A stretch of DNA of 19,186 bases. It comes from Fidelibacterota bacterium. Its GTDB lineage: Bacteria > Fidelibacterota > UBA8477. The notes under the pieces were generated by a model, which was not told the origin of the DNA, ran no database searches, and saw only the letters and a list, made by a program, of their open reading frames with translations. This document shows, in pieces, positions 1-19,186 of the stretch. Location: positions 1-19,186 of the forward strand of contig JAIPJR010000056.1 of the NCBI GenBank assembly GCA_021734045.1, in the 5' to 3' direction. Position 1 is the first letter of the stretch. Every line of letters begins with the position of its first letter. The translations under genes and the position numbers were made by a program.

Positions 1-253
1 TCCAGACTTTGTGAACAAATTGACTGTCTACACTTACAGAGATAACCTCTACACCCAGTTCCTGTAAGGTCTCATACTTGGCAGCGACCGCTGACACTTC
101 GGTCGCTCAGACAAAGGTGAAATCACCCGGATAAAAGCACAGCAACACCCATTTCCCCAGGTAATCGGACAATTTCACATTGGTGAAGGTCCCCTGGTAA
201 TAGGCGGGTGCTGTAAAATCCGGTGCCTTGGTTCCAACTTTTACTTCAGACAT
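1..253 (-). CDS. Selenocysteine-containing peroxiredoxin (AhpC/TSA family), 3' end cut by window edge
   Basis: A thioredoxin-fold peroxidase that would reduce H2O2 and organic peroxides in the cytoplasm. From the ATG at 253 it reads [16 protein letters not shown]..., then YPGDFTFV (residues 41-48), then an in-frame TGA at 107-109. Beyond it the same frame stays open to the edge as [18 protein letters not shown] and [17 protein letters not shown], the normal peroxiredoxin continuation. The TGA is residue 49 and falls on the last position of the active-site motif PxxxTxxC (P42, T46, residue 49), so it replaces the peroxidatic cysteine. Reading it as Sec gives TFV-Sec-ATE against the usual TFVCPTE. 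A GGGGGAG ribosome site lies about 10 nt before this ATG, favouring it over the in-frame ATG at 394. The resolving residue lies outside the window. Selenoprotein peroxiredoxins (PrxU) are known in bacteria. Nonsense mutation or sequencing error are the alternatives, made less likely by the intact downstream frame and the hairpin. Confidence 0.88.
79..97 (-). promoter_or_regulatory. Candidate bacterial SECIS hairpin downstream of the UGA
   Basis: On the minus strand, CAGC (93-90), loop GGTC (89-86) and GCTG (85-82) form a perfect 4-bp stem with a 4-nt loop. The stem can be extended by a G-C and a T-A pair (95/80 and 96/79) around an unpaired T at 94. Counted from the U of UGA, the loop G and U are nucleotides 22 and 23 and the unpaired U is 16. 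In the E. coli fdhF SECIS the key loop bases are G23 and U24 with a bulged U17 (from memory), so the geometry is the same, shifted by one. A competing perfect 8-bp hairpin can form from arms 100-107 and 83-90 and would include the A of the UGA. SelB is the expected ligand, but it is not encoded here. Confidence 0.68.
107..109 (-). other. UGA codon recoded as selenocysteine
   Basis: In-frame TGA (plus-strand tca) at the peroxidatic position of the peroxiredoxin, directly after the codons for Thr-Phe-Val. Genome-wide UGA reassignment is unlikely, because TGA ends other genes here: the homocysteine methyltransferase (2403-2405), the glycosyltransferase (8159-8161) and the B12-binding subunit (11721-11723). 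One base change from TGC or TGT would also give TGA, so a mutation cannot be excluded from this sequence alone. Confidence 0.85.
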
Positions 254-414
254 CTTGCGTGTCTCCCCCGCTTGTTCGGTTTTTAATGTTTCTTTGGGAA
301 TTGGCGCTCCCACCTGAGCGCCGGTAGGCCGGGCACAACCGGCAGATTCTTCCGCCACAAATCCCCCCTTTCCAATTTCTCTCCCCTGCCACACGCCGTC
401 GCAATAGAGATTGC
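254..414 (-). promoter_or_regulatory. Structured 5' leader of the peroxiredoxin gene
   Basis: The region between the peroxiredoxin ATG and the upstream deacetylase gene holds three strong inverted repeats. A 5-bp hairpin with a 4-nt loop lies at 401-414. A 6-bp stem pairs 338-343 with 320-325. A perfect 7-bp hairpin has arms 316-322 and 303-309. The last two share bases 320-322, so they cannot both form fully, as in attenuators or riboswitches. No U-tract follows the last hairpin. The frame is also open upstream of the chosen ATG to 394, so an N-terminal extension of 47 residues is possible, though its Gly/Pro/Glu-rich composition does not look like peroxiredoxin. I do not recognise a known riboswitch class. 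Confidence 0.4.
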
Positions 415-18862: not shown

Positions 18863-18936
18863 GGGCGCTTGGCTCAGTTGGTTAGAGCGCCGCCCTTACA
18901 AGGCGGAGGTCACAGGTTCGAATCCCGTAGCGCCCA
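18863..18936 (+). tRNA. tRNA-Val (anticodon UAC)
   Basis: A full cloverleaf. The acceptor stem GGGCGCT pairs with AGCGCCC (18929-18935), with discriminator A18936. The D arm is GCTC...GAGC. The anticodon stem CCGCC/GGCGG closes the loop CTTACAA (anticodon TAC, valine GUA). The T loop is TTCGAAT. The T stem ACAGG/CCCGT has one A-C mismatch in the middle, where CCTGT would be expected. The CCA end is not encoded. It lies 56 bases after the SOD terminator and runs directly into a tandem repeat that copies parts of it. Confidence 0.95.
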
Positions 18937-19055
18937 CTTTCTCCACCGCAATTACAACCATTTCCTTCATCAACTGCCCTCACCAGGCGGAGGTCACAGG
19001 TTTGAGCCGAAATGAGCGTCAGCGAATGGAGACAAGGGAGGACAGCGTCCGACCT
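18921..19055 (+). repeat. 135-bp tandem repeat, copy 1 (tRNA-derived)
   Basis: The unit begins inside the T loop of tRNA-Val. It consists of four parts: the tRNA 3' end (18921-18936), a 39-base spacer, a 29-base piece matching the tRNA anticodon-to-T-loop region, and 51 bases that contain a GGAC-AGC-GTCC mini-hairpin (19040-19050). I found no difference between this copy and the next by eye. No coding capacity is evident; open frames across it are by-products of the repeat. Confidence 0.88.
18976..19004 (+). pseudogene. tRNA-Val fragment (anticodon arm to T loop, CAC anticodon), repeat copy 1
   Basis: 29 bases aligning to tRNA-Val positions 18892-18920 with three differences. The anticodon loop becomes CTCACCA, so the triplet is CAC, which would read valine GUG. 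A five-pair anticodon stem can still form (CTGCC/GGCGG, starting at 18974). The 5' acceptor and D arm are absent, and the T arm diverges after TTTGA, so this is not a working tRNA as it stands. Confidence 0.65.
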
Positions 19056-19186
19056 AATCCCGTAGCGCCCACTTTCTCCACCGCAATTACAACCATTTCC
19101 TTCATCAACTGCCCTCACCAGGCGGAGGTCACAGGTTTGAGCCGAAATGAGCGTCAGCGAATGGAGACAAGGGAGGACAGCGTCCG
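19056..19186 (+). repeat. 135-bp tandem repeat, copy 2, truncated by the window edge
   Basis: 131 bases that look identical to copy 1 over their whole length, starting again at the tRNA 3' end and stopping 4 bases short of a full unit because the window ends. The total copy number is therefore unknown. If the window edge is a contig end, an assembly overlap artefact must be considered. Confidence 0.85.
19111..19139 (+). pseudogene. tRNA-Val fragment (CAC anticodon), repeat copy 2
   Basis: Same sequence as the fragment 135 bases upstream, with the same CTCACCA loop and the same missing 5' half. Confidence 0.65.

Follow-up and report, generated by a model that had tools for sequence, protein, structure and literature searches.

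A probable UGA-encoded selenocysteine at the peroxidatic position of a PrxU-type peroxiredoxin fragment from a Fidelibacterota bacterium

Introduction

A peroxiredoxin containing selenocysteine (Sec) was described from Eubacterium acidaminophilum by Sohling et al. (2001; cited in PMC13188914). A Prx selenoprotein family with the motif TxxU has been found in metagenomes, with 43 genes in the Sargasso Sea data (PMC1088965) and 253 genes in the GOS data (PMC2398784), and Sec peroxiredoxins are abundant in marine metagenomes (PMC1088965, PMC2398784).

In this study, we analyzed a stretch of DNA of 19,186 nucleotides (the window), positions 1 to 19,186 of contig JAIPJR010000056.1 from a Fidelibacterota bacterium. 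We infer with high confidence that the window begins with the first 84 codons of prxU, encoding a thioredoxin-fold peroxiredoxin in which UGA would be decoded as Sec at the peroxidatic residue. The fragment shares the AhpC/TSA domain and the Sec of PxxxTxxU with NF040737 (peroxi_PrxU) and the E. acidaminophilum protein, although with only 84 residues it stays below the family cut-off of 270 bits. With the metagenomic Prx family it has in common the TxxU motif and the peroxiredoxin domain, a likeness of motif rather than of one-by-one comparison. Judged by its sequence, the window gene is thus a further member of the known PrxU or Prx TxxU family (PMC13188914, PMC1088965, PMC2398784), and the novelty implied by an earlier reading of the letters alone (the sequence-only reading) is not supported.

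Typical 2-Cys peroxiredoxins and AhpC (PDB 5zte BAS1, human Prx2) belong to the same fold family, and their C-terminal VCPAGW is shared with the clade of the window gene; one relative (L023) matches 5zte at 1.5e-46. However, the 2-Cys enzymes carry Cys, usually followed by Pro, where PrxU carries Sec, and 5zte has ILFFYP without a Cys at position −10, whereas LLCFYP, with a Cys at −10 from Sec, is present in 80/80 PrxU members (loci L023-L102). The UxxC Prx-like selenoproteins also have a peroxiredoxin-like domain, but their motif is UxxC (PMC1088965), in contrast to the TxxU followed by ATE of the window gene.

Results

The gene fragment and its in-frame TGA

The features of the fragment are as follows:
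1..253, minus strand: 5' part of prxU, 84 codons, with ATG at 253-251, translated with TGA as U, matched by NF040737 and cut at base 1 by the contig end
107..109, minus strand: in-frame TGA, predicted from homologues and the Sec machinery to be Sec49 at the peroxidatic position, FTFV-U-ATE
264..270, minus strand: GGGGGAG ahead of the ATG, a likely Shine-Dalgarno stretch, from direct reading of the sequence

When TGA is translated as Sec, the only break in the minus-strand peroxiredoxin frame (253..2) is the TGA at codon 49, and 35 conserved peroxiredoxin codons follow it in the first 106 bases of the window. The frame matches the Pfam AhpC-TSA domain (PF00578) with 89.5 bits (E 2.2e-25; cut-off 26), and its best match is NCBIfam PrxU NF040737 (158.5 bits, E 2.1e-46, 83 of 233 profile positions), the curated cut-off of 270 bits being set for the whole protein and the fragment ending at the contig edge. 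The AhpC NCBIfam model scores lower, at 99.8 bits. The UGA lies in frame at the peroxidatic position, giving PxxxTxxU. Because base 1 of the window is also base 1 of its contig (G000:C20), prxU has been cut by the assembly, which consists of 119 contigs and is 92% complete. Standard annotation calls such a gene a fragment that ends at the catalytic residue; here it was recovered through homologues, Sec machinery, and RNA covariation.

Conservation of TGA among homologues

The catalytic codon is TGA in 79 of the 80 closest homologues and TGC in the remaining one (L064). These homologues span Calditrichota, KSB1, Neomarinimicrobiota, Chloroflexota, Acidobacteriota, Thermodesulfobacteriota, Synergistota, Bacillota, and others, and all but two stay open past the TGA for 150-158 codons to a normal end; of the exceptions, the TGC form runs 150 codons before it meets an edge, and another ends after 69 codons. 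Since nearly all of the nearest homologues share the codon, chance or sequencing error does not account for the TGA. The lone TGA at the catalytic residue with conserved codons to the edge, which the sequence-only reading had pointed out, is therefore borne out by the translation with TGA as Sec and by the homologues.

The same reading had proposed that Ala after Sec, in place of the usual Pro, may mark a distinct selenoprotein subgroup, and had called for an alignment with PrxU selenoproteins and Cys homologues. The alignment supports Sec at the catalytic residue; the subgroup had to be rejected. Ala follows the catalytic residue in 68/80 homologues, Pro in 10, and Ser in 1, the single Cys homologue also having Ala, and in the tree the Pro forms make two small groups beside Ala forms among the Sec members. 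Ala after Sec is the norm of the PrxU family, since it is the majority state and the Pro forms sit within the same Sec tree.

Selenocysteine machinery

Searches of the source genome detected selA (502.7 bits) and selB (361.9 bits), adjacent on one contig, selD (389.2 bits; G000:C24:15775-16698, L012), and a tRNA-Sec with the anticodon TCA (67.2 bits; also supported by ARAGORN). The four components of bacterial Sec insertion, selA, selB, selD, and tRNA-Sec, are thus found within one genome, and the absence of machinery, which the sequence-only reading had named as a refutation when it proposed a search for selA, selB, selC, and selD, was not observed. The selenophosphate synthetase SelD appears to be a selenoprotein itself, since selD has one in-frame TGA within the active-site sequence GUAGKIGP. 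For formate dehydrogenase as a further selenoprotein, the only sizeable match in the genome was below the cut-off and had no internal TGA.

A TGA-type prxU is present in eight other relatives, and each of them also gave a match to selA, in one case to a fragment at a contig end; selA also occurs in many relatives without prxU. Two genomes of the same order as the source genome (G014 and G015) carry PrxU proteins. The two other genomes of the same genus that were searched (G001 and G002, 82-89% complete) have selA and gave no PrxU-level match, which suggests that prxU is patchy within the genus.

A covarying hairpin after the UGA

A hairpin was recognized directly downstream of the UGA:
80..95, minus strand: predicted bacterial SECIS hairpin UCAGC-GGUC-GCUG, with the apical GGUC loop at +18..+21 from the UGA and the extension pair +12/+27 reaching base 80

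Codons +5 to +8 read TCA GCG GTC GCT or TCG GCG GTC GCC in nearly all rows of the alignment, and fold as C-A/G-G-C (GGUC) G-C-U/C-G. In the 82 rows, the pair +15/+24 is A-U in 46, G-C in 34, C-G in 1, and unpaired in 1. It is a standard pair in 81/82 rows, compared with 59.9 on average after shuffling, the pair 12-27 is standard in 69 rows against 41.0, and loop positions 18-21 (G-C or A-U) pair in 81 rows against 75.5, values reached in each case by 0/2000 shuffles; these statistics ignore shared ancestry, yet both pair states are found inside several phyla. Synonymous codon choice is also frozen: Val is GTC in 75/82 rows compared with 31% elsewhere in the same genes, and Ala is GCG in 76/82 rows compared with 16%. 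In the sole TGC homologue, the sequence is TCG GCC CTG GCC, and the loop is gone.

The hairpin 3' of the UGA, with its covarying stem and the conserved G of its apical loop, fits in position and loop the descriptions of bacterial SECIS elements (PMC2398784; PMC8659212). On the covariation, the frozen synonymous codons, and the loss in the Cys homologue, we identify it as a predicted bacterial SECIS element. E. coli SelB binds to a GGUC loop in fdhF.

The energy z-score of the 63-base stretch was −0.14 and gave no signal, owing to a competing helix of greater stability, so that covariation is the informative test. The Rfam model SECIS_1, which we take to describe the eukaryotic element, had zero matches and was silent on the controls too, and therefore says nothing about a bacterial SECIS. 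The hairpin pattern had 8 matches genome-wide, compared with 11 in the reversed control, and does not indicate a shared element.

The competing helix

The competing helix involves the bases next to the UGA:
100..106, minus strand: GCGACCG, complementary to CGGUCGC at 84-90, a putative mask of the SECIS loop in ribosome-free mRNA

In the window, this helix has a predicted energy of −13.8 kcal/mol, compared with −4.0 kcal/mol for the SECIS stem alone, and single-sequence folding prefers it over the SECIS hairpin. When folding starts at +10, the pair 15-24 forms in 79/82 rows; in the model, the SECIS hairpin can thus form as a local fold once the initial bases downstream of the UGA are covered, for example, by a ribosome. 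Among the 71 rows with Ala directly after the UGA, 49 encode it by GCG, against 10.6 expected from the Ala usage of the genes themselves.

The C-terminus and the resolving Cys

The PrxU proteins of relatives are mostly 196-205 residues long. In the part of the tree that holds the window gene (support 91/94, not strong), 26/27 rows have a resolving Cys at +123 within a motif of the VCPAGW type; in the rest of the PrxU tree, Thr predominates at this position, with Met or Ala in some members. PrxU thus splits into members with and without the C-terminal resolving Cys, all with the unusual Cys at −10, and owing to this split one can test how the selenolate is regenerated in members that lack the resolving Cys. 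The sequence-only reading had suggested extending the contig leftward to the full C-terminus and any resolving residue. The C-terminus lies outside the assembly: the contig ends at base 1, and a search of the genome with the C-terminal 119 residues of a relative found, in place of the 3' half of prxU, only an ordinary AhpC (41%, on contig C38); the resolving residue can be judged from the tree neighbours, and the window copy probably has Cys at +123.

A second peroxiredoxin interrupted by TGA, on the same contig C38, was considered as a selenoprotein and rejected: its catalytic residue is Cys (VCPTE), and the TGA lies upstream of it, in the stretch close to the edge of the contig where the frame breaks. 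This locus (G000:C38:11611-12087; L002, L117) is a Cys-type AhpC whose N-terminal part is broken by TGA near the contig end, perhaps through an insertion or an assembly join.

Discussion

The claim that the peroxiredoxin has Sec at its peroxidatic position agrees with the homologues, the complete Sec machinery, and the covarying SECIS hairpin. The TGA could instead be a genuine stop, or an error of sequencing, in a decayed or mis-sequenced Cys peroxiredoxin, a reading suggested by the fact that only half of the gene is visible and that the genus mates G001 and G002 have ordinary AhpC-type genes and no PrxU. However, a TGA common to 79/80 independent homologues, the conserved reading beyond it, the covarying SECIS, and the Sec machinery make decay or error very improbable. 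Reassignment of TGA to another amino acid, such as Trp under code 4, would leave an open frame of the same appearance, but table 11 accounts normally for the ends or the reading of the other genes of the window, the genome has a tRNA-Sec (anticodon TCA) together with selA, selB, and selD, and the position is that of the catalytic chalcogen, which is Cys in the one relative without TGA; we consider it hardly conceivable. Against Sec-containing PrxU itself, the 3' half lies outside the assembly, so the window copy may carry a downstream frame break, and both the two same-genus genomes without a PrxU-level match and the preference of single-sequence folding for the masking helix count against it.

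An RNA layer might be added to the Sec reading, in which GCGAC after the UGA pairs with GUCGC and hides the SECIS loop from SelB until a ribosome melts the pairing. The enrichment of GCG after the UGA and the stability of the helix in the window speak for it, as does a masking probability near 1 in most close relatives of the window gene. However, most members from Chloroflexota are not predicted to form the helix and keep GCG anyway, so that masking can explain the bias no more than in part, and covariation is absent at 6-18 and weak at 3-21; we regard this addition as unlikely. That the prxU mRNA would be a two-state element, with GCGAC masking the GGUC loop in free mRNA and a ribosome at the UGA unmasking it so that SelB is recruited only when needed, is a model that we consider quite unlikely; if true, it would account for the marked bias towards GCG as the codon next to the UGA, at any rate within the clade of the window gene.

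With Sec as the reading of the UGA, Sec-tRNA(UCA) would be made by SelA and SelD, and SelB, as homology and covariation suggest, would bring it to the ribosome by recognizing the hairpin whose GGUC loop lies 18-21 bases after the UGA. Translation past the UGA would yield a protein of about 203 residues, as estimated from the lengths of its relatives. The selenolate in the PxxxTxxU (Pro-Thr-Sec) pocket is predicted to reduce peroxides and be converted to selenenic acid, which in this clade the C-terminal Cys (VCPAGW, +123) would probably resolve as a selenenylsulfide that thioredoxin reduces, by analogy with the relatives and with 2-Cys peroxiredoxins. The Sec and Cys peroxiredoxin chemistry behind this scheme has been described (PMC13188914; PMC8533274).

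At the opposite end of the window (18921-19186), a 135-base unit is present in two identical copies in tandem, which run to the contig end and include the 3' end of a tRNA-Val (18863-18937) and a tRNA-like piece.
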